Part shown: one piece after another, positions 14,139 through 37,498 of the stretch
How the letters are laid out: each line of letters begins with the position of its first letter
Numbering within the stretch: position 1 is the stretch's first letter
IMG/VR virus record: IMGVR_UViG_3300046468_000219
Coordinates: 1 to 37,498 of that record
Length of the DNA stretch: 37,498 nt
Reading direction: 5' to 3' (one strand)
Source of the DNA: a virus
Notes under the pieces: generated by a model
Database searches by the model: none
What the model was told of the DNA's origin: nothing
The model's input: the letters and a program-made list of their open reading frames with translations, nothing else
Translations under genes and position numbers: made by a program

Positions 14139-14336
14139 CTATTTCTCCTGTTTTGGCGGTTCTGGTAAAGGCATCCAGTGAGAAGGGCTTAAAAAGAAAC
14201 TACTTTCTAGGCTTATCCATTCCTCCTGCACCAAGTCCCAGAGTGCTAATTCAACATTAGCATCCCAGACGATTATCGTCTCCTGATTCTTTGGAGCCGT
14301 TTCAATCGGTTGCCATTCGTTATTGGTATTACTCAT
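14139..14336 (-). CDS. DUF551-like protein, 65 aa
   Basis: The protein opens with EWQPIETAPKNQETIIVWD and ends with PSHWMPLPEPPK, the two hallmark segments of the DUF551-type family found in many phages, with a short connecting 'ALWDLVQEEWISL' stretch. The function of that family is unknown. It overlaps the 3' end of the small terminase gene by eight bases. Confidence 0.75.
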   Translation of the reverse strand: MSNTNNEWQPIETAPKNQETIIVWDANVELALWDLVQEEWISLESSFFLSPSHWMPLPEPPKQEK

Positions 14337-14886
14337 CTTCTACTTCTCCTGTTTCTGCGTTAATAATCCTGGCCTTCTCAATGCGGTCCTTTGCCGCCTT
14401 GATGGTTGCCTCGTAGTCCTCCTGGGTATATACCTTTCGGTCCTCTGTTATCTGCGTAGCCTCACCACGCGCTGTCAAAGCCTCCCTTGCTGAGTTAGCC
14501 TTTGCTATTGAGAGTTCCTTGAGGTCCTTGAAGGATACCTCCATTTTTGGGTCCGTCTCCATGCGCTCGCGCACCTTCTCAATCAGGTCCTCCTCCAAGC
14601 TGCTAAGGTTCAGGTACGCTTTCGCGGCTATGCGCCCCGATAGGTCCTTGAACTTGCCGAGGTGGTCGGCGTAGTCCGCCAGGACGGATATAACAGTCTC
14701 CCTGTCATAACCGTATTTGCGAACGAGCCTAGTCTGGGAGGAACCAGTGCTGTACAGATACAATAGCTTCGCTACCTTTTCGGGGTCATATACGCTGAGG
14801 CTCTTGATTTTCAGGCACTCCTTCTCAGCAGCTACCTCGCGGATACTGTCCACGATGTCCTGCATTAGTTCTTCTTTTTCCTCCAT
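14329..14886 (-). CDS. Probable terminase small subunit, 185 aa
   Basis: Residues about 36-75 form an HTH-like unit (DPEKVAKLLYLYSTGSSQTR then LVRKYGYDRETVISVLADY), followed by an all-helical oligomerisation-type region and an acidic C-terminus ending in GEVEDE. This domain order fits small terminases, which recognise the packaging start site and hand DNA to the large subunit. It is the first gene of the leftward module and lies next to a repeat-rich intergenic region that could contain its site. The start is uncertain: ATG 14886 lies so close to the promoter that the message may be leaderless; ATG 14865 is an alternative. Confidence 0.65.
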   Translation of the reverse strand: MEEKEELMQDIVDSIREVAAEKECLKIKSLSVYDPEKVAKLLYLYSTGSSQTRLVRKYGYDRETVISVLADYADHLGKFKDLSGRIAAKAYLNLSSLEEDLIEKVRERMETDPKMEVSFKDLKELSIAKANSAREALTARGEATQITEDRKVYTQEDYEATIKAAKDRIEKARIINAETGEVEDE

Positions 14887-14892
14887 TGTCCT

Positions 14893-14922
14893 AGATTAGC
14901 ATTGCTAATAACATAATGTCAA
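14893..14922 (-). promoter_or_regulatory. Leftward promoter for the late module
   Basis: On the minus strand a perfect TTGACA (14922-14917) is followed after 18 bases by TAATCT (14898-14893) preceded by TG-n, an extended -10. Transcription would begin at about the A of the small terminase ATG (14886). The palindrome at 14895-14909 fills the spacer and the -10. Confidence 0.5.
14895..14909. promoter_or_regulatory. Operator-like palindrome in the late promoter
   Basis: ATTAGCA-T-TGCTAAT is a perfect 15-bp inverted repeat lying between the -35 and -10 of the leftward promoter and overlapping the -10. A protein bound here would block RNA polymerase, so this is a good candidate for an early repressor site keeping late genes off. 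No repressor gene is identified. Confidence 0.55.
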
Positions 14923-14946
14923 GGGTATTAATGCAGTATTTTGCGC

Positions 14947-14974
14947 TTGACGTTGTTAGCCCCCATGATACAAT
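14947..14974 (+). promoter_or_regulatory. Rightward sigma70-type promoter
   Basis: TTGACG (14947-14952), a 16-base spacer and TACAAT (14969-14974): five of six matches at each box. It points toward the early genes, but the first accepted gene is almost 500 bases away, so it may make a long leader, a small RNA or an origin primer transcript. Confidence 0.5.
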
Positions 14975-15034
14975 CAAAGCCTACCATAAGGCAGCAACAT
15001 CATACGGCTTCTACTTCATAAGAATAAATACAAA

Positions 15035-15056
15035 GTAAGAGCCATAGGACTTGACT
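15035..15056 (+). repeat. Long-range inverted repeat, left arm
   Basis: GTAAGAGCCATAGGACTTGA plus CT matches the reverse complement of 16893-16914 at 20 of 22 positions. The two arms lie about 1.8 kb apart and bracket the first small early genes. Each arm contains one copy of the CCATAAGG-type core. Confidence 0.7.
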
Positions 15057-15322
15057 GACCATGTGAAGGGCTACCTTAAGGAAGGGCAGCCATAAGGTAG
15101 GGCAATCAGCGGTACGCCGAACTAGGGCCAGTCCAGCCCTATGAGTGAGTTATTTTTTTGAGGCCCGTTTGTTATATACACTCTACACCGCCGAGCCGCG
15201 AGCGCGACCCCCACCCCCCCACTGCTCAAATGTTCAGTATATAAGTTTTGCTAATGCCAAGGCTTCCCAGGATTACGGCTTCTTACATGAGGGATTTTTT
15301 CTTTTTGTGAAAGGTGGATATA

Positions 15323-15346
15323 TTGCGTGCATGATTGCGTGCATGA
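15323..15346 (+). repeat. Tandem 12-bp repeat
   Basis: TTGCGTGCATGA occurs twice without spacing and is followed by a partial third (TTGC). It lies about 70 bases upstream of the shared early-promoter block. It could be a protein-binding pair or replication slippage. Confidence 0.6.
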
Positions 15347-15415
15347 TTGCCAGCTTTAGACCCTCAAATTTAGGGGGCGGAAAGGGTTCAGTTATTTGGA
15401 TTTTTGCGGGATAGG

Positions 15416-15461
15416 AGTTTCAAAACTAGTGATTGCGCTGCGGTCTTATTTGGAGTAAAGT
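15416..15461 (+). promoter_or_regulatory. Early promoter region, copy 1 of a shared block
   Basis: AGTTTCAAAACTAGTGATTG (15416-15435) recurs at 17073-17092 with two differences. In both places it leads into a sigma70-like pair with a 17-base spacer; here TTGCGC (15433-15438) and TAAAGT (15456-15461), both weak. The -10 ends six bases before the ATG at 15468, so the message may be leaderless. Weak boxes plus a shared upstream block suggest activation by a bound factor. Confidence 0.5.
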
Positions 15462-15467
15462 AATAGC

Positions 15468-16479: not shown

Positions 16480-16504
16480 CCCGCAAACCTAGCAACTCAA
16501 CAAG

Positions 16505-16527
16505 CCCGCTTTCGAGCGGGTTTTTTT
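16505..16527 (+). terminator. Rho-independent terminator after the first early unit
   Basis: CCCGCT-TTCG-AGCGGG followed by seven T. Perfect 6-bp stem with a UUCG tetraloop, 25 bases after the 45-residue gene. The tetraloop and long U-run make it one of the clearest terminators in the window. Confidence 0.92.
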
Positions 16528-16749
16528 ATGCTGTCAATCCGGGGATTGAAAAGCTAAGGGCATGAATGCCCTGCCAAGCAGCAAGGGGCAATGGCATTTA
16601 ATCCGTGCGTATGCGCAGCTTTTACGCTCAAATTTGCGATATACGGCGTTTTGATTTGCGATAAGGGGTAAGGGTAGGGTAAAGGGGCAAAGGCAATCCT
16701 AGGGGCATTTACGTGCAAGCAATAGGCAATCCGCAAAAATGGAAGCCCT

Positions 16750-16804
16750 TAACCCAAGGCTAACCCAAGCATAACCCAAGCATAACCCAAGGCTAACCCA
16801 AGCA
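16750..16804 (+). repeat. Five 11-bp iterons, TAACCCAAGSM
   Basis: Five directly adjacent 11-base units, all TAACCCAAG followed by GC or CA (starts 16750, 16761, 16772, 16783, 16794). The period equals about one DNA helical turn, so sites would face the same side, the usual arrangement for initiator-protein binding. The array is followed by a GGnTAACCCAAG / CTTGGGGTAACC hairpin with the next repeat. Confidence 0.85.
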
Positions 16805-16823
16805 AGCCCTTGGGGTAACCTAT

Positions 16824-16888
16824 GGAAGCCCTTGGGAAGCCCCTGGGAAGCCCTTGGGAAGCCCTACCTTATGGAAGCCCTACCTTAT
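16824..16888 (+). repeat. Second tandem array: 3 x 11 bp then 2 x 16 bp
   Basis: GGAAGCCCTTG, GGAAGCCCCTG and GGAAGCCCTTG (16824, 16835, 16846) are followed by two exact copies of GGAAGCCCTACCTTAT (16857, 16873). A further copy, GGAAGCCCTTA, precedes the first array at 16741. The CCTTGGG core is the reverse complement of CCCAAGG in the iterons, so the two arrays can pair. Confidence 0.85.
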
Positions 16889-16892
16889 GGCT

Positions 16893-16914
16893 AGTCAAGC
16901 CTTATGGCTCTTAC
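16893..16914 (-). repeat. Long-range inverted repeat, right arm
   Basis: The reverse complement of this stretch matches 15035-15056 at 20 of 22 bases. It contains CCTTATGG (16900-16907) and adjoins the A/T-rich stretch. Confidence 0.7.
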
Positions 16915-17072
16915 TTATTTAAATATAAAACAAAGGAAAAACCATAAGTAATAACTGACCTTATGGCTTGGCAGTCTTATGACTGGGTTGCCTTAAGTAA
17001 GGGCAATGAAAAAACCCCTGTCAAGCTTAAACTGCAAGATAGTTTCAGAAATTTGGATTAATGACAATTAAA

Positions 17073-17118
17073 AGTTTCAAAAGTAGTGATAGACGTAGGC
17101 GCAAATTTATGGTTTAAT
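17073..17118 (+). promoter_or_regulatory. Early promoter region, copy 2 of a shared block
   Basis: AGTTTCAAAAGTAGTGATAG (17073-17092) matches the block at 15416-15435 at 18 of 20 positions. It leads into TAGACG (17090-17095), 17 bases and TTTAAT (17113-17118). A weaker half copy, AGTTTCAGAA, lies at 17041. It probably drives the second early unit starting at 17167. Confidence 0.55.
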
Positions 17119-17166
17119 GCAATCGTTCAATAGAAACAAACCAATAACCAATCAATAAATAACACC

Positions 17167-17295
17167 ATGAAAAACGACATCGACAACCTAGTAAAGGGCG
17201 GGGAGCGTATCTACGAATCCGCGCTCGCCGTCCTAGCCTGTGCCCTGGGCGCAAGCATTATCACCATCCTAGCAATCCTTATCTCACAAATCTAA
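17167..17295 (+). CDS. Small single-span membrane protein, 42 aa
   Basis: A 42-codon frame: a charged N-terminus (MKNDIDNLVKGGERIYES) then a membrane helix of about 22 residues (LAVLACALGASIITILAILI) and a short tail. It follows an A/T-rich leader (CAATAAATAACACC) like those of other early genes, and its stop overlaps the next start as TAATG. It could sit in the inner membrane as an early host-directed peptide; no partner can be inferred. Confidence 0.55.
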   Translation: MKNDIDNLVKGGERIYESALAVLACALGASIITILAILISQI

Positions 17296-17558
17296 TGAAA
17301 CATGAAATAACAAACGATTACTACCGCTTGGCGGCTGGCTTCTACCAGTCCGATGAGCTGCCCGAAAACTACCTAGCAATGGAGGATGAGGACTTCTATG
17401 GGTATCTTGAGGAATACGCATGGCAACCCTTTGAGGGACACAGGGGCGAGAACATTGCCCTTTTCATAGAGAACCTTTCTGTTGCAATGGAAAACATCGC
17501 ACGGGAGGCACGCAAAAAAACCCTTGACGAAGTAAAGGACAAACTCAATATCAAATAA
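17295..17558 (+). CDS. Acidic hypothetical early protein, 87 aa
   Basis: The protein (MKHEITNDYYRLAAGFYQSD...) is acidic and aromatic-rich in its first half and helical and basic in its last 25 residues. No family recognised. It starts within the stop of the small membrane gene, so they are translationally coupled. Confidence 0.6.
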   Translation: MKHEITNDYYRLAAGFYQSDELPENYLAMEDEDFYGYLEEYAWQPFEGHRGENIALFIENLSVAMENIAREARKKTLDEVKDKLNIK

Positions 17559-17923: not shown

Positions 17924-18280
17924 ATGGAACAGATACAAACATACACATACCCTGCGGGGCAACAGCTTTCCGATGGGGAGCTTGTCCAAGTCCAAGTCAA
18001 AGCTGGCTCGAGACTTGTTTTCAAGGACGCTTACTTCCACGAACTACAGGAGGGTGATGTCTACATTATCCCTACCCAATGGGAGCTACCACCCGCAACC
18101 GATACAGAGATTCTGGACTACATACTGGACAAGGGACTCGGTTGGAATGCTGGCGGCGAGCATCTGATTATCTGGGAGAAGTCCACGCAGAATAATCTGT
18201 TCGTGAGTCATACCGTTACTGACCTTCGGGGCGCGTTCCGCGAAGCAGTCACCGAGTTAATCCATAACTGCGAACTATAA
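17924..18280 (+). CDS. Hypothetical early protein, 118 aa
   Basis: A soluble alpha/beta protein (MEQIQTYTYPAGQQLSDGEL...). Its C-terminal half ('ILDYILDKGLGWNAGGEHLI' and 'AFREAVTELIHN') is helical. No known motif. Its last base is the first base of the next start (TAATG), so it is coupled to the RecB-like nuclease gene. Confidence 0.6.
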   Translation: MEQIQTYTYPAGQQLSDGELVQVQVKAGSRLVFKDAYFHELQEGDVYIIPTQWELPPATDTEILDYILDKGLGWNAGGEHLIIWEKSTQNNLFVSHTVTDLRGAFREAVTELIHNCEL

Positions 18281-19056
18281 TGGCTCACTTCTACTCAGCA
18301 GAGGATGTTACTGCACCGCAGTTTGAACCCAACATTACTACACCGCCACAAGCACGCAAGGCGGGAGCGAGGGTTTACCCCTCAGTCACTACTGTACTAG
18401 GTATTGTGAAGGACGACTTCATTGACTCCATCTGGAAGCCTTCCAAGCTGGTTGAACTGGCTCGACAGTATGAAGACCTGCACTGGCGGGACATTGAGCA
18501 GCTGACCTACGGGACACGGGAACATCCCATGTCGGGCGAGGTCATCTCATCCTCCGAGTTCGGCACGACCGTTCACCACTGCATTGAACAATGGGTCAAC
18601 CATCTATGGCTTGGCGAGGACGCTCCCGAAGAAACACCCTGGGACGCTTGGGCAATGCCATTCATTGACTGGATTGAAACCAATGACGTTAAGCCAATAG
18701 CCTGCGAGCGACTGGTTGCCTGTAACCGCATCAAGATTGCGGGGAGCGTGGACTTCATTGGACACGATGCGGAGGGCAAGCTGTTCCTTGCGGACTACAA
18801 GTGCAGGGCTAACACCAAGGGCAAGGCTAAGACCTATCCGAAGGACTGCGAGCAGTTAGCGATTGAAGCCTTCATGCTTATGAAGGAACACAAGCTGGAC
18901 TACCTGCCAGCCTGTATCAGTATTGTGGTGGATTGTGATACACAGGAACACCATCACCGCGAGTGGACACCTGAGCAGATGAAGTGGGGCATTGATAACG
19001 CCAAACTCTGCGCCAAAATCTACTGGCAGAAACGAATGAACCCCGTAATCAAATAA
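18280..19056 (+). CDS. RecB/Cas4-type PD-(D/E)XK exonuclease, 258 aa
   Basis: Motifs in order: GTTVHHCIEQW (residues 95-105, first His of the RecB family), an acidic position near 143, GSVDFIG with Asp158, LADYKCR with Asp172 and Lys174, and QLAIEAF with Gln192. This is the complete active-site pattern of RecB-like single-strand exonucleases. It may process DNA ends for the ERF annealing protein encoded further on, or degrade host DNA. It lies next to a methyltransferase gene, which could protect phage DNA from phage or host nucleases. Confidence 0.8.
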   Translation: MAHFYSAEDVTAPQFEPNITTPPQARKAGARVYPSVTTVLGIVKDDFIDSIWKPSKLVELARQYEDLHWRDIEQLTYGTREHPMSGEVISSSEFGTTVHHCIEQWVNHLWLGEDAPEETPWDAWAMPFIDWIETNDVKPIACERLVACNRIKIAGSVDFIGHDAEGKLFLADYKCRANTKGKAKTYPKDCEQLAIEAFMLMKEHKLDYLPACISIVVDCDTQEHHHREWTPEQMKWGIDNAKLCAKIYWQKRMNPVIK

Positions 19057-19062
19057 ACAAAT

Positions 19063-19080
19063 AAGAAAGGATACAATGTG
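19063..19080 (+). promoter_or_regulatory. Shared ribosome binding site with twin start codons ATGTG
   Basis: AAGAAAGG (19063-19070) is one of the few good Shine-Dalgarno sequences in the early module. Five bases later lies ATG (19076, frame of the 323-residue protein) and seven bases later GTG (19078, frame of the methyltransferase). The two codons share the G at 19078, so one site can start two frames. Confidence 0.7.
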
Positions 19081-20047
19081 GATACTACCGAAACAATTAC
19101 ACACCTCAGCCTTTGCAGCGGATACGAAGGCATTGGGCTTGGACTCCGAAGAGTTCTCCCAAATCTGCGAGAAATCGCTTACGTGGAGAGGGAAGGATTC
19201 CCTGTCGCGAACCTGGTTGCGAAGATGGAAGCGGGTCACTTGGATGCAGCCCCTATCTTCACGGACGTTAAAACCTTCCCTTACGGAAAGTTTCGTGGAA
19301 AAGTGGACATCCTCTCTGGGGGATTCCCGTGCCAGCCTTTCAGCCAAGCTGGAAAGCGTAAAGCAACTGATGACCCACGACACCTCTTCCCTTTCATCGC
19401 AGATGGAATCCGGGAATGCCAACCCACAATTGTCCTTCTCGAAAATGTGGAAGGGATACTCAGTAGCCGAACAGGAGACGGAGAACCAGTTCTCCAATAT
19501 GTCCTCCGAACATTGGAAGACTTGGGTTACAGGGCAACGGCAGGAATATTCTCAGCGCGTGAAGTCGGCGCAACTCATCAGAGAAAGCGGGTCTTCATCC
19601 TTGGGATGGCCAACGGCGAGCGTAGCAGGTTGCGTAGAGGGAGGAGTAGCGAAGAACGTGGAGATGACACCGAGCGGCTTCAAGGCAACGAGGGAGAACG
19701 GCACGAGCTACGGGGCGAAGCTGCGGGATGCGGTGATACATCACGAGATGAACTGGCCAACACCAAAAACGAGGGATTACAGGGACGGAATGAATCTCCA
19801 GAAGGTAATCCGCAAGGACGGCAAGCACAGGCTGGACAGCACACCACGGTTAGTTCAAACCGTGACCTATGGGTATCCCGACCCAACGAACCCCAACACG
19901 AATGGGAAGAACCGAGGGTCATTGAATCCGAACTGGGTCGAACAACTAATGGGAGTTCCAGTAGGGTGGACAGACTTAGGCTTCTGGGCAACGCAGTCGT
20001 CCCAGCCACAGCCGCCAAAGCCTTCGTTACCCTTATCCAACGATTAG
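19076..20047 (+). CDS. Overlapping protein in the methyltransferase gene (WPT...WVEQLMGVPVGWTD family), 323 aa
   Basis: This frame is open for 323 codons and lies within three bases of both ends of the methyltransferase frame. It reads like a real protein: a Trp-rich basic N-terminal half ('SRTWLRRWKRVTWMQPL', 'FSNMSSEHWKTWVTGQRQEY'), then WPTAS (178) and WPTPKTRDYRDG (227-238), and LNPNWVEQLMGVPVGWTDL (283-301). I recall similar 'WPTPTARD...LNPxFVEWLMGxPxGWT' proteins in phages and prophages near or over cytosine methyltransferases; I cannot cite a family name. Function unknown; it may assist target recognition or be an independent protein. Main doubt: a shadow frame could be open by composition. 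Confidence 0.65.
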   Translation: MWILPKQLHTSAFAADTKALGLDSEEFSQICEKSLTWRGKDSLSRTWLRRWKRVTWMQPLSSRTLKPSLTESFVEKWTSSLGDSRASLSAKLESVKQLMTHDTSSLSSQMESGNANPQLSFSKMWKGYSVAEQETENQFSNMSSEHWKTWVTGQRQEYSQRVKSAQLIRESGSSSLGWPTASVAGCVEGGVAKNVEMTPSGFKATRENGTSYGAKLRDAVIHHEMNWPTPKTRDYRDGMNLQKVIRKDGKHRLDSTPRLVQTVTYGYPDPTNPNTNGKNRGSLNPNWVEQLMGVPVGWTDLGFWATQSSQPQPPKPSLPLSND

Positions 20048-20244: not shown

Positions 20245-20601
20245 ATGGAATACAACGCTGACTTCGCATACGACCTAGCGGTCGGGCAGATGTCCGAGCT
20301 AGCCCTCGGTGACATATTCCAGAACAGAACCATCGAGGTCAAGGCTGACCTCAAAGCCAAGGATACTGGCAACCTGTTCATCGAATACGAATCCAGAGGC
20401 AAGCCATCGGGCATCGCCACAAGCCAAGCGGATTACTGGTGCTTCCACATCAGCAATCTTTTTATCATCATTGATACAGAAACATTAAAGAACATCGTCC
20501 GTCCACTCCTTGGCACAAGTGCTGACAAGCGGGGCGGGGATGAGAACTCATCAAAGGGAGTCCTGCTCCCGCTAACCGCACTATTAAATCAAGTAAAGTA
20601 A
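20245..20601 (+). CDS. Small PD-(D/E)XK-type nuclease-like protein, 118 aa
   Basis: An N-terminal helix with GQMSELALGDIF is followed by TIEVKADLKAKDTGNLFIEY (residues 29-48) containing the E-x-K active-site pair (Glu31, Lys33) and a second acidic residue at 47, then GKPSGIATSQADYWCFHI. This is the compact restriction-endonuclease fold pattern seen in many phage proteins that resolve or degrade DNA. Its exact substrate is unknown. It overlaps the next gene by one base. Confidence 0.6.
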   Translation: MEYNADFAYDLAVGQMSELALGDIFQNRTIEVKADLKAKDTGNLFIEYESRGKPSGIATSQADYWCFHISNLFIIIDTETLKNIVRPLLGTSADKRGGDENSSKGVLLPLTALLNQVK

Positions 20602-20921
20602 TGACACAACATCCACTATCAAGTTCCGAACCCTTGGACTCCTACGCTACCACCATTAGCCGCTTTATGAATTGGGCTGCTGAACGAATCGCCAAGGAGG
20701 TCGAGGACAACGAACGCATCGAGGAGAAGGCTGGGACAAGGGAGTTCATCCCTGGCTCAGGCTACGAGAAGCAACGCATATATACCGAGGAGCAAAAGTC
20801 CGAACTCATATTGGGTATTGACAAGCTCAGGGCTGAGGGTCTGACTGCTCGTAATGCCGCAAGAGAACTAGGAATCTATGACGCAACTTATTACAAATGG
20901 AAAAGAGAACTGAACAAATAG
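20601..20921 (+). CDS. Small DNA-binding protein with C-terminal HTH, 106 aa
   Basis: The N-terminal 55 residues are helical and acidic. The C-terminal 45 (YTEEQKSELILGIDKLRAEG then LTARNAARELGIYDATYYKW) form an HTH of the transposase/IS-type, with the AARELGI...YKWKREL recognition helix. No catalytic domain is present. It could be a regulator of early or late genes, and is a possible reader of the palindromes in the control regions. It overlaps the next gene by 25 bases. Confidence 0.6.
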   Translation: MTQHPLSSSEPLDSYATTISRFMNWAAERIAKEVEDNERIEEKAGTREFIPGSGYEKQRIYTEEQKSELILGIDKLRAEGLTARNAARELGIYDATYYKWKRELNK

Positions 20922-21890: not shown

Positions 21891-22352
21891 ATGACCTACC
21901 TTCCGCAAAATCAGATAGCCTCCTATCGGGAGAAAAACAAACCCACCTGCTGTCCCATCCTCAGCACCAAGACTGACGATTGGGTACTTGACCATGACCA
22001 CCAGACGGGTATGGTTCGCGGGGTTATCTCCCGACAGGCCAACAGTCTCCTGGGCAAGGTCGAGAACTTCTACCTCAAGATGTGCAAGGGCGACAAGGAG
22101 TTCCTGCCAGTAACACTTGAGGCAATGGCGAGCTACCTTGAGAATGCGCGGACGGATGTGCTGCATCCAGTAGGTCTTACACAACTTACAAAGCGATTTT
22201 GCAATCAGGGCTTGACAGCCGCACAACAAATCTCCACGTTGGAGGACATGGGGGCGAGTAGAGAAGAACTCGATGCTTGCTCCAATCAGAAACAACGAGC
22301 GGAACTCTTCCGTTCATTAACAAAACAAAAACATAATAACCATGAGTCATAA
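21891..22352 (+). CDS. Endonuclease VII-like recombination nuclease, 153 aa
   Basis: The core VLDHDHQTGMVRGVISRQAN (residues 32-51) followed by SLLGKVENFY is the signature of T4 endonuclease VII-type His-Me-finger enzymes, which cut Holliday junctions and branched DNA before packaging. The zinc site is incomplete: a Cys pair is present at about 20-21 but the second CxxC is replaced by ISRQAN. Several phage relatives with RQxN instead of Cys-containing loops exist, so activity without zinc is plausible. It overlaps the ERF gene by 11 bases. Confidence 0.8.
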   Translation: MTYLPQNQIASYREKNKPTCCPILSTKTDDWVLDHDHQTGMVRGVISRQANSLLGKVENFYLKMCKGDKEFLPVTLEAMASYLENARTDVLHPVGLTQLTKRFCNQGLTAAQQISTLEDMGASREELDACSNQKQRAELFRSLTKQKHNNHES

Positions 22353-22821
22353 CATACGACAAAAGTTACAAGGGATTCAGTCATCCCTCAAAGCCCCAAA
22401 GGGTCAGACCAATAAGTTCGGAGGGTACAAGTACCGCTCCTGTGAGGACATCCTTACTTCCGTTAAACCTTTACTTGCCGAGTGGGGTTGCAGTCTAGTC
22501 ATCCAGGATGACATCGTTGAGGTCGGCGGTCGCGTCTACGTCAAGGCTACTGCCAGCTTAGCCGACAATGATACCGAACTCGCTGTCTCCGCTACTGGAT
22601 TCGCTCGTGAGGCTGAGACTAAGAAGGGTATGGACGATGCACAGATTACTGGCTCCGCTAGTTCCTATGCACGTAAGTACGCCCTCAATGGCCTCTTCGC
22701 TATTGACGATACCAAGGATGCGGACGCAACCAATGACCACGGCAAACGTGCGCCGAAGCCAAGCGAGGCGGCAATGGAGAAAGCCCAACGCCAGCGTGAT
22801 GCCCAACAAGCAGGATTCTAA
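22342..22821 (+). CDS. ERF-family single-strand annealing protein, 159 aa
   Basis: Hallmarks of the ERF family: KFGGYKYRSCEDILTSVKPL near residue 26-45, a beta region with EVGGRVYVKATASL, and ITGSASSYARKYALNGLFAI (about 102-121) before an acidic 'DDTKDADA' tail. It anneals single strands in phage recombination and concatemer formation, and pairs naturally with the RecB-like nuclease and endonuclease VII-like protein. The C-terminus is rich in Ala/Gln/Lys and could interact with single-strand binding protein. Confidence 0.88.
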   Translation: MSHNIRQKLQGIQSSLKAPKGQTNKFGGYKYRSCEDILTSVKPLLAEWGCSLVIQDDIVEVGGRVYVKATASLADNDTELAVSATGFAREAETKKGMDDAQITGSASSYARKYALNGLFAIDDTKDADATNDHGKRAPKPSEAAMEKAQRQRDAQQAGF

Positions 22822-22859
22822 CCCAACAATAACCAATAACCCAATAACCAAATAATAAT

Positions 22860-23105
22860 ATGTCTGATTACGATAACACAAACAGCGGTACATTCTTCAT
22901 CAATGACCGCAAAGAAAAAGAAACGCACCCTGACTACAATGGCAAAATCAATGTAGAGGGTAAAGAGTATTACCTAAAGGGATGGAAGAAGACCGCAAAG
23001 AGCGGACTCAACTTCATGTCCCTTGCTGTTAACCCCGTTGACGGAGCGCGTTCCAGTTCGCCGAAAGAGGCAACTGCCGCAGTCAATGACCCAGAACCGT
23101 TCTAA
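22860..23105 (+). CDS. Small OB-type or DUF736-like protein, 81 aa
   Basis: The protein begins with an acidic stretch then GTFFINDRKEKETHPDYNGK and INVEGKEYYLKGWKKTAKSG, ending LNFMSLAVNP. This GxFxxNDRKExxxHPDYxG...G..Y.L.GW pattern is known from short phage proteins found next to ERF or other recombination genes; a single-strand DNA-binding role has been proposed for similar small OB-like proteins, but this one is not shown. It is preceded by an AATAACC repeat leader and overlaps the next gene by one base. Confidence 0.6.
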   Translation: MSDYDNTNSGTFFINDRKEKETHPDYNGKINVEGKEYYLKGWKKTAKSGLNFMSLAVNPVDGARSSSPKEATAAVNDPEPF

Positions 23106-23449
23106 TGTCTGACGCATCTAGATTCGACAAGGATTGGTGGGAGCATTTCCGCACTATGGAAATCCAGCACATACTGGAGCTTACCGCCAAGAAGAACAAT
23201 GACTACACTGGTGGCGATACCTGCGATAACCCCTTCGCTAACTTCGACAAAAGCACCGAGTTCGGCGTTCATCCCTTGACAGGAATCTGCATCAGAATGC
23301 AGGACAAATTCCAGAGAGCTAAGGCTTTCTGTGCGGACGGCTCGCTCTCGGTTACGACCCAGGGCGACCAGTCCAAGGACATATTCCGCGACCTGATTGG
23401 CTACTCCTTGATAGCCATAGGGATGCTGGAACGGGAAGATAACCCGTAA
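23105..23449 (+). CDS. DUF1599 / Nmad1-type protein, 114 aa
   Basis: The central part (KKNNDYTGGDTCDNPFANFD, then 'GVHPLTGICIRMQDKFQRA' and 'IFRDLIGYSLIAIGML') is the signature of DUF1599, also called nucleotide modification associated domain 1. That family is thought to act in modified-base metabolism or as a helper of such genes; it is not a proven enzyme. Its presence with a DNA methyltransferase in the same early unit suggests the phage changes its DNA or nucleotide pool. It overlaps the previous gene by one base. Confidence 0.75.
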   Translation: MSDASRFDKDWWEHFRTMEIQHILELTAKKNNDYTGGDTCDNPFANFDKSTEFGVHPLTGICIRMQDKFQRAKAFCADGSLSVTTQGDQSKDIFRDLIGYSLIAIGMLEREDNP

Positions 23450-23528
23450 GTCCTAATGGTAGACTACTTGGCCCTTCGCAATTCGGCGGGGGGTTCAAGT
23501 AATCTCAACACATATGCAAATAAATATA

Positions 23529-23699
23529 ATGAACTCACTACAAGACGCTACAAAGACAACCCTTTCAATCCACGAAGCGATTGATACCCGCCGACTTCCA
23601 GAGGAGGTTCGCATCAAACACAATGCGGTCAGTCAGTGCCTACGTTCATTAGTTGAAATACTTGACAATGAACTACGAGCATCCGAACCAACCCCATAG
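23529..23699 (+). CDS. Hypothetical protein, 56 aa
   Basis: A short helical protein (MNSLQDATKTTLSIHEAIDT...). The frame is open from ATG 23514, but the ATG at 23529 follows the AAATAAATATA leader pattern used by other early genes and is preferred. It overlaps the start of the helicase gene by 32 bases, so it may couple translation of helicase. No motif recognised. Confidence 0.5.
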   Translation: MNSLQDATKTTLSIHEAIDTRRLPEEVRIKHNAVSQCLRSLVEILDNELRASEPTP

Positions 23700-25008
23700 C
23701 GTAGAGGCCGAACGCCGACTACTTGCCACCTGTATTGATGATGGCATCCGCGAAGAAAATACTGTTCTGCTTGACGATGTAAGTGCTATCGTTGAGGCAG
23801 AGGATTTCTACGTGTACAAGCACAAGCTTCTGTTCGAGGCTTTGCAGTCCCTAGCCAATGACAGTCAGCCCCTCAATGAGGTCAGCATCCATGAGCGTCT
23901 CAAGACCTCTGGTGCAACCGATGAGGTCGGCGGTCTTCCTGGGTTACTCAACATCATGGACGAGGTTTCCACGGGCCTACAGGCTCGGTTCTTCGCCAAG
24001 ACGGTTGCTGAGAAGTCCAGGCTTCGCGCACTCATGCGCTCCTGCCGTACTGCGGCGGAGCAGGCTGAGAAGGAGACTACTGGCTACGATGAGATTCGTG
24101 CTGAACTGGAGGCTGACATCACAGCTAAACCTAAACTCGGCATTGATACCGCCAAGATTAGTACCAGCACAGAGGAACTCAAGAAGGAGATTCAACTGAT
24201 GAAGGACGGGGAGTTCACCCCTGATGTCATTCGTACTCACATCGGTCGGCTGGATTGGTTCCTTGGCAACGGCGGCATAGCCGCTGGCGAGGTACTGACA
24301 CTAGCCGCACCAACGTCCTGCGGTAAGTCCGCATGGGCCTTGTTCGTTGCACTGAACGCAGTCAAGAAGGAGGAGAAGGCAACCGCCATCTTCTCACTTG
24401 AGATGCCGCAGAAGCAACTGACTAAGCGCATGACGCAGATTGTTTCAGGGGTCAACCTTCGGAACGTACAGGACAGAAACGTAACGGACATAGAGAGCAA
24501 GCGTGTCGATGATGCTATTGATGAACTCGGCGAGATGCCGATTTACTCATCGCATAGTGTCAAGAGCGCAGATGACCTAGTAAGTCAGGCTCGCTCATTC
24601 GTCAACAACAACGGGGTCAAGCTGGTAATTGTTGATTACCTTCAGTTGATTCCGTTTAACTCAAATAAGATGGGTAAGTCAGAGGGCATCGCTAACATCT
24701 CTCACAAGATTAAGCAGATGGCTCTGGACCTTAACGTGGCTGTAATCCTATTGGCTCAGGTCAATCGGGAGGGCGCAAAGCGTGGCGGTCTAGAACTGTA
24801 TGACCTCAAGGATTCAGGTGACATTGAGAATGATGCCGATGTGGTATTGCTCATGTGGCCTTCCAATGGGGACGTTGAGTCCTCCAAGGACAGTGACCAC
24901 TCAGGGCACTACACTAACCTCTTATACAAATTAGCAAAGAATCGTGAAGGCGAGCGAGGAATCGGTTGCTTCTTTAAATTCTATCACGGAACAGGGAGAT
25001 TCAAATAA
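23668..25008 (+). CDS. DnaB-type replicative helicase, 446 aa
   Basis: From the ATG at 23668, residues 6-115 form the DnaB N-terminal domain (PHSVEAERRLL...). The RecA-type motor has Walker A AAPTSCGKS (213-221, first Gly replaced by Ala), Walker B LVIVDYLQL (319-327), LLAQVNRE (361-368), DLKDSGDIENDADVVLL (379-395) and arginine-finger KNREGERG (424-431). It unwinds DNA as a hexamer at the replication fork. A TTG at 23653 could start a five-residue longer form. No loader, primase or polymerase gene is seen, so it probably recruits host enzymes. Confidence 0.92.
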   Translation: MNYEHPNQPHSVEAERRLLATCIDDGIREENTVLLDDVSAIVEAEDFYVYKHKLLFEALQSLANDSQPLNEVSIHERLKTSGATDEVGGLPGLLNIMDEVSTGLQARFFAKTVAEKSRLRALMRSCRTAAEQAEKETTGYDEIRAELEADITAKPKLGIDTAKISTSTEELKKEIQLMKDGEFTPDVIRTHIGRLDWFLGNGGIAAGEVLTLAAPTSCGKSAWALFVALNAVKKEEKATAIFSLEMPQKQLTKRMTQIVSGVNLRNVQDRNVTDIESKRVDDAIDELGEMPIYSSHSVKSADDLVSQARSFVNNNGVKLVIVDYLQLIPFNSNKMGKSEGIANISHKIKQMALDLNVAVILLAQVNREGAKRGGLELYDLKDSGDIENDADVVLLMWPSNGDVESSKDSDHSGHYTNLLYKLAKNREGERGIGCFFKFYHGTGRFK

Positions 25009-35945: not shown

Positions 35946-36191
35946 TTAGCAGTTCCAGGCTCGGCGGCTCCAGTAGTTAGCGGATAGTTTGTTTGACTTG
36001 CCCTTGATGCCACCGCTACGAGCGCAGTAGCTTTTCTTACGGGCAGGACGGTCCTTCTTGATTGTCATGTTAGCATCGCCGAAACGGACCAGTTTTTCCT
36101 TACCACCCTGGCAAGCCTTCACGACAAATTTCTTCCCGCCCTGGACTTCACGGCGTGGCACGTTGCACTTCATCTTGGATTTATCAGCCAT
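35946..36191 (-). CDS. Conserved small basic protein, 81 aa (complete copy)
   Basis: The full-length form of the gene cut at position 1-98. It contains 'KMKCNVPRREVQGGKKFVVK', then 'KEKLVRFGDANMTIKKDRPA' and 'RKKSYCARSGGIKGKSNKLS ANYWSRRAW'. The VRFGDxNMxIK...RRKSFxARH core is a familiar small protein of marine phages, of unknown function. Four Cys, a Trp-rich end and many basic residues suggest a small metal- or nucleic-acid-binding fold. It is joined by TAATG to the 90-residue gene. Confidence 0.75.
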   Translation of the reverse strand: MADKSKMKCNVPRREVQGGKKFVVKACQGGKEKLVRFGDANMTIKKDRPARKKSYCARSGGIKGKSNKLSANYWSRRAWNC

Positions 36192-36463
36192 TATTTTTTG
36201 CGTACTGGTTTTACTCTTCGAGGTTTACCCGCTGGTTGTCCGAGACTTTTCTTCTCAGCTACTTTCTTTTTCTTCTGCGATGGGGTCAGCTCACCCGCAG
36301 TCACAGGGGTTCTTGAGCTTACACGCTTCGATGGTCTGCAGTATGGCGTACCTCGCTTTTCTCCCGCTTGTCGTCCGCAGGGCTTTCCTGAGCGGACATC
36401 CACCCATTCCTCCTTGAACCACCGCTTGAGGGCTGCTCCTTCTTTTGTTTTCCGTGCAGCCAT
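36191..36463 (-). CDS. Small basic protein, 90 aa, second copy
   Basis: Counterpart of 98-370. The frame is intact and the protein is the same (five base changes, all apparently silent in this frame). The start is again the ATG in TAATG at 36463. See the left copy for description. Confidence 0.75.
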   Translation of the reverse strand: MAARKTKEGAALKRWFKEEWVDVRSGKPCGRQAGEKRGTPYCRPSKRVSSRTPVTAGELTPSQKKKKVAEKKSLGQPAGKPRRVKPVRKK

Positions 36464-36597
36464 TACTTTGCATTCTTTCGTTTGCCCCAGTTGGCGGCTC
36501 CTACCTTGCGGCACTTAGCGATTGCCCCACTTGCATAAGCAGATGGGAAGACCTTGTAACGGGCCTTGACCTTTTTGTAGCAAGCGTCCTTAGGCAT
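36463..36597 (-). CDS. Small basic protein, 44 aa, second copy
   Basis: Counterpart of 370-504. Frame kept; the two changes (GCC to GCT and CCC to CCT) are silent. Codon-position bias of the changes supports that this tiny frame is translated. Confidence 0.75.
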   Translation of the reverse strand: MPKDACYKKVKARYKVFPSAYASGAIAKCRKVGAANWGKRKNAK

Positions 36598-36683
36598 TAC
36601 TTACCTTTCACTTTGCAGCCACAACCCTTGCGCTCGCCGCATGAACCCTTACTTGCTTTACCTGCTGGTTTTCGTCCGTACAT
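36597..36683 (-). CDS. Tiny Cys/Lys-rich peptide, 28 aa, second copy
   Basis: Counterpart of 504-590. Ser at residue 8 is replaced by Gly and the base before the ATG region changes from AATAAT to AACAAT. The frame and Shine-Dalgarno (AAGGA) are kept. Confidence 0.6.
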   Translation of the reverse strand: MYGRKPAGKASKGSCGERKGCGCKVKGK

Positions 36684-36691
36684 ATTGTTCC

Positions 36692-37087
36692 TTATTTTAC
36701 TTGTGATGAACCAAAGTAGAATCCTACAATGGCGAGTGCTGTTTGGCGCACTTCAGGGAGTATTAGATAACCCTGCGTATGCACCCATTTTGAGCCTTTG
36801 AATAGGCCTAGAAAGCCGTTTGATTCCTCCTGAAGGGTAACTGCTATGTCAGTGAATGCAAAGACCGCAGGGAGGGCTATAATAGCCAACAGGACGCTTA
36901 CAGTAATAATCCTACGCATCCATACTCCACCACGCTCAGAAGCCCTATCAGCAGATATATCAGCAGCCTTCTGCTTCTTCAGCATTTGCTCGAATAGACG
37001 AGTCTGGCTCTGGGCTTGGGCAGCAATCATCTTCATTACGAAGCCTGATACGCCACCTCCAAGCATTGCTAATAGTTCAGGGGTCAT
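36692..37087 (-). CDS. Putative holin-like membrane protein, 131 aa, second copy
   Basis: Counterpart of 599-994. Changes cluster in the soluble N-terminal part: I6L, Q37K, E40K, V41A and K48R; the membrane segments are unchanged in sequence. Same length and same ATGA coupling to the gene upstream. Confidence 0.5.
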   Translation of the reverse strand: MTPELLAMLGGGVSGFVMKMIAAQAQSQTRLFEQMLKKQKAADISADRASERGGVWMRRIITVSVLLAIIALPAVFAFTDIAVTLQEESNGFLGLFKGSKWVHTQGYLILPEVRQTALAIVGFYFGSSQVK

Positions 37088-37245
37088 TTCTTCAGTTCCT
37101 TGATTACCTTGATGGCTGATGCCGTCATGTAGACAAATGTAGCTAGACCTACACAGAAGCCCAATATCTCATTGACAGGGGTAAGCTCGATGGTGGCAAA
37201 GAAACCAGCCACGCCTACTACGCTTCTGTATATGATGTCGTCCAT
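37084..37245 (-). CDS. Small membrane protein, 53 aa, second copy
   Basis: Counterpart of 991-1152. Frame kept, with V46I near the C-terminus and several silent changes. The stop overlaps the holin-like start as ATGA. Confidence 0.6.
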   Translation of the reverse strand: MDDIIYRSVVGVAGFFATIELTPVNEILGFCVGLATFVYMTASAIKVIKELKK

Positions 37246-37490
37246 TAGATAGCCTCTGGGTCAGGGAATTTTACTTCTTCGACAGCGGATTCCTGCTCGA
37301 CTTCTGTGAGATTATATGTGTCAACAGGCAATGCCCACTTGGCTGCACCTACCAATGGTTTCTTGGTAAGGCGAGGGCGGGTAACGTAGCGTGAACCTTT
37401 ACCTACCTTGTGGTAAGCAAGCCCACGAGCGATACCCTCCTGTTCGGAGCGGTCAATGCCTTCTTGTTCGGTTTCAAATAATAGGTACAT
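37245..37490 (-). CDS. Hypothetical protein, 81 aa, second copy
   Basis: Counterpart of 1152-1397 with four changes (I4L, A6E, V12I, S56D). One base is inserted between the fibre stop and this ATG compared with the left copy. Two further codons of the fibre gene (Ser, stop) lie at the edge of the window. Confidence 0.7.
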   Translation of the reverse strand: MYLLFETEQEGIDRSEQEGIARGLAYHKVGKGSRYVTRPRLTKKPLVGAAKWALPVDTYNLTEVEQESAVEEVKFPDPEAI

Positions 37491-37498
37491 GATTAAGA

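Follow-up and report, generated by a model that had tools for sequence, protein, structure and literature searches.

The window analysed here (the whole stretch of viral DNA, 37,498 nt long) carries two matching elements made of short repeats, one beside a terminase-small-subunit-like (terS-like) gene and the other in the largest intergenic gap, which share one anatomy, keep their place in related phages, the second with an A/T-rich centre that is likewise conserved, and co-occur with a small HTH protein. From sequence comparison, these arrays could be twin initiator-binding sites, paired in the manner of oriL and oriR of phage SPP1, and putative starts of replication, a reading which we rank first of those considered and hold tentatively as falling a little short of probable, the claim of an origin being plausible and unproven. 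An earlier note, made from the letters of the DNA, had described the second element by itself as a likely origin: it is still best read as an initiator-type DNA site next to a stretch that melts easily, while the feature turns out to be one half of a pair, and its 11-bp iterons to be specific to a lineage.

Paired arrays of common anatomy

The largest intergenic gap of the window, judged by ORF spacing (16480..17167, 688 nt), houses the element that we call copy 2. Upstream of its arrays an intrinsic terminator read directly from the sequence, CCCGCTTTCGAGCGGG-T7 (16505..16527, plus strand), closes the left gene block, its hairpin and T-run being retained in two relatives, L026 and L011. The arrays themselves lie on the plus strand: array A, five 11-bp units TAACCCAAG(GC/CA) (16750..16804); array B, 11-bp units GGAAGCCC(T/C)TG (16824..16865); and two 16-bp units GGAAGCCCTACCTTAT (16857..16890). 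TRF reports them as 11-bp x 5.0, 11-bp x 3.8 and 16-bp x 2.1, with scores of 82, 77 and 68 against 59 for the best shuffle, and none of 500 dinucleotide-preserving shuffles of 16481-17167 reached the observed arrays. The register of the 11-bp and 16-bp units, which the earlier note had claimed, is borne out by direct reading, TRF and shuffles, and these are direct repeats in the helical register of an iteron-type origin. The adjacent A/T-rich element of such an origin is present as well, at 16911..16955, where the same note had placed it: in the AT scan its richest 40-base stretch reaches 85% AT, a value within the top 0.03% for the window, and the element is retained in relatives, with unwinding as its candidate role. 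The cores CCCAAGG of one array and CCTTGGG of the other are mutually complementary. On both strands the predicted fold of the region is more stable than that of its shuffles (z of -3.4 on the minus and -2.1 on the plus strand), in agreement with the suggestion that the arrays could fold together. What had been missed is that clusters of 8-bp boxes, YCWTAMGR, run past the A/T-rich stretch to about 16982, that a matching copy lies by the terS-like gene, and that an inferred terminal repeat lies between the copies. The boxes of copy 2 (16867..16982, minus strand) have their upper coordinates at 16982, 16966 and, after a step of 59 bp, 16907, 16890 and 16874. A G-quadruplex-like tract, GGGGTAAGGGTAGGGTAAAGGGG, adjoins the arrays at 16662-16688; one of its G-tracts is gone in L026 and another is shorter in L011.

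Copy 1 lies in the second-largest intergenic gap (14887..15467, 581 nt, also by ORF spacing), together with divergent promoters and the inferred terminal repeat. The terS-like gene that adjoins it (14329..14886, minus strand) is so named from its position and a helical, HTH-like N-terminus only; family and fold or structure searches with the protein gave no significant match, and its model is of low confidence. Toward this gene points a probable sigma70-like promoter, TTGACA-N18-TAATCT (14893..14922, minus strand), whose -35-like pair is retained in relatives, and away from it a second one, TTGACG-N16-TACAAT (14947..14974, plus strand), which is intact in many relatives and has a poor -10 in some. 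The boxes follow on the plus strand (14984..15097) at 14984, 15000, 15016 and, after a step of 58 bp, 15074 and 15090. Both copies, then, have 8-bp boxes (CCATAAGG type) at intervals of 16 bp, leave about 50 bp free of boxes and continue with further boxes, their central steps being of similar length. The whole window has eight CCWTAWGG sites, against 2.85 expected, and seven of them fall inside the two elements.

The element of copy 1 (14984-15105) is a matching, mainly inverted counterpart of copy 2: compared with the window itself, the copy 2 region matches 15033-15087 on the opposite strand, and the repeat finder pairs the copies through two inverted arms, one of 30 nt (87%) and one of 16 nt (100%). 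The stricter idea of an always inverted pairing is weakened: most relatives do have an inverted best match, but the quasi-palindromic nature of the element lets a direct alignment score slightly higher in L026, L050 and the window. A direct repeat of 47 nt (74%), TTTGGATT...AGTTTCAAAA-TAGTGAT, stands at 15387-15433, past the terminal repeat, and at 17044-17090, past copy 2, each time ahead of a gene block, and may be a promoter of unknown type.

A probable terminal repeat and the genome ends

The repeat that we infer between the two copies would form the physical ends of the genome. The order upstream of terS in the relatives is divergent sigma70-like promoters, boxes, and then CCCTTGAG-N-ATTTTTTT-RAGG, a pattern found in 48 stretches of viral contigs, of which all those inspected adjoin the terS-like gene of this group. 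Its interpretation as a terminator or leader RNA was dropped, since the contig ends and a shared 33-nt rule point to a terminus signal instead. Contig G001 (35,989 nt) starts just past the first signal and ends exactly at the second, which lies about 190 nt beyond it, and the opening 83 nt of the contig recur near its other end at 97.6%; two contigs from other phages, L098 and L104, likewise end exactly at the second signal, so that contigs of three different phages stop at the right cut signal. Such contig ends would suit identical genome ends of the T7 type, the window being a circularised assembly. Both putative cut sites end a 33-nt signal, TGAR...T-run...ATG with the cut after the ATG, and TGAR stands 33 nt ahead of the cut in both, the left end of G001 being one base off. 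By this rule from the relatives, the left signal of the window (TGAG-T-run) occupies 15142..15174, with a putative cut after 15174, and the right one 15288..15320, with a putative cut after 15320 (both plus strand), and the direct terminal repeat, of 146 bp, would therefore be 15175..15320. This would place copy 1 at the right genome end and the start of the copy 2 arrays about 1.6 kb in from the left one. The terminus rule also allows the linear genomes of the group to be oriented from metagenomes.

A C-rich stretch, GACCCCCACCCCCCC, lies inside the inferred terminal repeat (15206-15221) and is retained in nearly all relatives; as a cos site it was rejected, given its place inside the repeat and the absence of contig stops at it except in L049. 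Many relatives have tandem arrays of their own (9-45 bp units) between the terminal repeat and the first early gene, such as CTAGAACCG in L058 and CTGCACATTAC in L074. The ends of the window itself (1-1404 and 36094-37498) match over 1405 nt at 96.8%, which suggests that the record is a complete genome, assembled as a circle, of about 36.1 kb unit length, whose overlap comes from two strain variants.

Persistence in relatives and a candidate binding protein

Around 100 related loci were gathered by TerL and helicase searches. The closest relative, L026, has near-identical flanks, with four units in the 11-bp array against five in the window and four in the 16-bp array against two. In the more distant L011 the 11-bp array is much longer and built of another, related unit (AAGCCCTWRG), and the 16-bp units number about six. 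The 11-bp iterons are, in these three, the lineage-specific and copy-number-variable part, and the conserved part of the element is the 16-bp-spaced boxes with the AT-rich centre; arrays do persist among relatives, which had been proposed as a check on the origin. When copy 1 of each genome was compared with the rest of its own early region, with 20 shuffles each, a second copy scored above the best shuffle in about 20 distinct related contigs, at the same place: the gap directly before a small membrane-protein gene (17168..17296 in the window, plus strand, by neighbourhood comparison), followed by a 118-residue gene and the exonuclease, and so just upstream of the operon of exonuclease, annealing protein, SSB and DnaB-type helicase. 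The unit sequence varies between clades and agrees within one genome, as would be expected if one factor reads both copies. In each of the 23 loci scanned, the centre of copy 2 ranks with the most A/T-rich 24-mers of that locus (top 0.01-1.2%), its sequence being unrelated between clades; copy 1 has GC-rich hairpins at its centre in some clades. A DNA search of the copy 2 region against 50,697 phage records gave no match.

One box-free group, that of L075, L078, L081, L090, L096 and L097, has at the syntenic site a promoter and then one to three short repeats, without a flanked A/T-rich centre, and this site looks like an operator. In L078, L081 and L097 the repeats that follow the promoter ahead of the exonuclease operon are 21 bp long, TCCAACATGTTACTAGAATGA, and number one to three.

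A protein of 106 residues (20601..20921, plus strand) scores above the curated cut-off for the Pfam domain HTH_Tnp_1. Its model, with three confidently placed helices at the C-terminus and one long helix at the N-terminus, gave no significant match in a structure search. Eight of the 11 near-complete genomes are positive for its profile; G007, G008 and C75C1 have neither the protein nor the arrays, and G004 has a divergent form of it but no recognised boxes. Its presence tracks the box-type arrays in 10 of the 11 genomes, these being related by descent and their boxes judged by inspection, and in the array-bearing L044 group a distantly related domain occupies the equivalent place. It is plausible from this that the protein binds the arrays. 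The earlier guess at this protein as a candidate gains from the co-occurrence.

Origins, operators and other readings of the pair

Family searches (PHROG/Pfam-type) gave a replication kit of an exonuclease, with which the replication and recombination core starts (18280..19056, plus strand), Erf annealing protein, SSB and DnaB-like helicase in the same operon (22342..25008, plus strand), and endonuclease VII. A family A DNA polymerase was found neither in this phage nor in 10 related genomes, and none of the 38 window proteins scanned matched a DNA polymerase PHROG, which upholds to that extent the earlier statement that the phage has no polymerase gene; a large structural protein gave, in the same scan, a weak partial match to a virion RNA polymerase profile. 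Among the proteins of the window no known initiator, or replication domain typical of one, was recognised, and the 118-residue gene before the exonuclease was set aside as a candidate (acidic, with no HTH seen and no family match). All genes diverge from the array region, where the cumulative GC skew has a low plateau; this plateau, looked for near 16.7 kb as a sign of an origin, is there, but gene orientation alone accounts for it. A DNA methyltransferase gene (19076-20047) was not found in L026 and is present in several distant relatives.

Theta replication of SPP1 starts at oriL, and its forks are thought to stall at oriR, each site having direct repeats and an A/T-rich element and one protein, G38P, binding both (PMC6316719, PMC3485210). 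Our phage likewise has two sites of similar repeats per genome, with direct repeats and an A/T-rich unwinding element, here a candidate one, and the two are alike in their exonuclease, annealing protein, SSB, resolvase, DnaB-type helicase and, here probably, use of the host polymerase. They differ in that the boxes here are 8-bp palindromes at 16 bp, that the sites lie some 2-5 kb apart across the genome ends in this group as against some 12-13 kb in SPP1, and that packaging is headful in SPP1 but seems here to produce fixed direct terminal repeats; a search of the early proteins for a G38P-type origin-binding protein or a G39P loader gave no match (PHROGs, Pfam). The LUZ24-like Pseudomonas phage tf, with a direct terminal repeat of 186 bp (PMC3517423), resembles our phage in a distantly related major head protein and in a linear map in which early genes from one end and late genes from the other converge between short direct terminal repeats, but it has its own DNA polymerase and primase/helicase (PMC3517423). 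The closest annotated record, phage C75C1 (OQ984151.1; terL 73%, head protein 67.5% and helicase 42% identity), on which no paper was found in the literature, differs in that neither arrays nor HTH protein were detected and in that an unrelated gene annotated as "replication initiation protein" adjoins its exonuclease.

If the pair is of the SPP1 kind, 16750-16982 would be the early-side member of two nucleoprotein assembly sites, each with 8-bp quasi-palindromic boxes at 16 bp, a centre (A/T-rich in copy 2, hairpin-capable in some of the copies 1) and further boxes. A phage DNA-binding protein, probably the 106-residue HTH protein, would bind both members and on copy 2 would melt the A/T-rich centre, at which the phage DnaB-type helicase and the host polymerase would start replication. 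Next to terS and the terminal repeat, copy 1 would be a second origin or a site of fork stalling, and this stalling would lead to recombination-dependent concatemer formation, as proposed for oriL and oriR. In favour of an origin count, besides the excess of the arrays over chance, their shared layout and conserved place and the A/T-rich centre of copy 2, (i) the drift in number and sequence of the units beside near-identical flanks, which is iteron-like behaviour, (ii) a gene kit that, without a family A polymerase, resembles SPP1-type replication, and (iii) the upstream terminator, which separates the arrays from the left gene block. Against it count the want of an initiator with a recognised replication domain, the shortness of the HTH protein and its resemblance to transposase HTH domains, the operator-like syntenic site of the box-free group, and, for copy 1, the overlap with a promoter start and the GC-rich hairpin centres of some clades.

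A serious rival, which fits almost as well and which we hold to be possible, though less likely, is that both copies are operator arrays, where a phage regulator, possibly the HTH protein, times the terS/late operon, running leftward from copy 1, and the replication operon, running rightward from copy 2. The inverted arrangement would then follow from the opposite direction of the operons, relative to whose transcription both copies are equally oriented and each stands ahead; the first box of copy 1 lies about 10 bp beyond a -10 hexamer, box-free relatives retain promoters at both places, and an HTH_Tnp_1 domain alone suits a regulator. Operators would leave unexplained, however, the retained A/T-rich centre of unrelated sequence and the large, slippage-prone 11-bp arrays, and while boxes overlap a promoter at copy 1, none is clear at copy 2, beside which inspection found no good sigma70 promoter in most relatives. 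A terminase small subunit or its partner might instead bind the arrays as packaging or terminus-maturation sites, on the model of the short repeats SRL and SRR of T7, since the terminal repeat has an array on either side and copy 1, wherever a genome carries it, falls between the inferred cut site and the terS-like gene; this becomes improbable in that array-free genomes (the L073-L105 group and L158) retain the cut signals, so that the arrays are dispensable for cutting, and in that copy 2 lies some 1.6-5 kb inside the left end.

Quite unlikely, too, is a structured RNA, in which case the rightward promoter would give copy 1 as a leader or small RNA, and copy 2 would be a leader itself or the antisense target of copy 1. 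The central hairpin is retained despite complete base replacement between clades, L035 and L116 have terminator-like hairpins after copy 1, and copy 2 of the window folds better than shuffles; yet the two strands of copy 1 fold about equally (mean z of -1.5 and -1.5, with element starts set roughly), as palindromic DNA would, the copies are only about 65-80% complementary in most genomes, a terminator stands upstream of copy 2, and a search of the window gave no Rfam match. We would give as little credit to a bolder form of the origin reading, whereby one phage protein might bridge both arrays across the terminal repeat in the concatemer and make of them a combined origin, fork barrier and site of terminus duplication; if true, it would tie the replication switch to end formation and offer a testable route to the duplication of short terminal repeats. 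Replication start and end formation in phages without a polymerase can be tested on concrete targets here: the two arrays, the 33-nt terminus signal and, as a candidate factor, the HTH protein.

The elements belong to a group of little-known aquatic phages, which is common in IMG/VR, with at least 599 terL stretches, and has one annotated record, C75C1. One terL relative (60%), L106, lies inside an Opitutae metagenome bin, which hints weakly at a Verrucomicrobiota host for the group.
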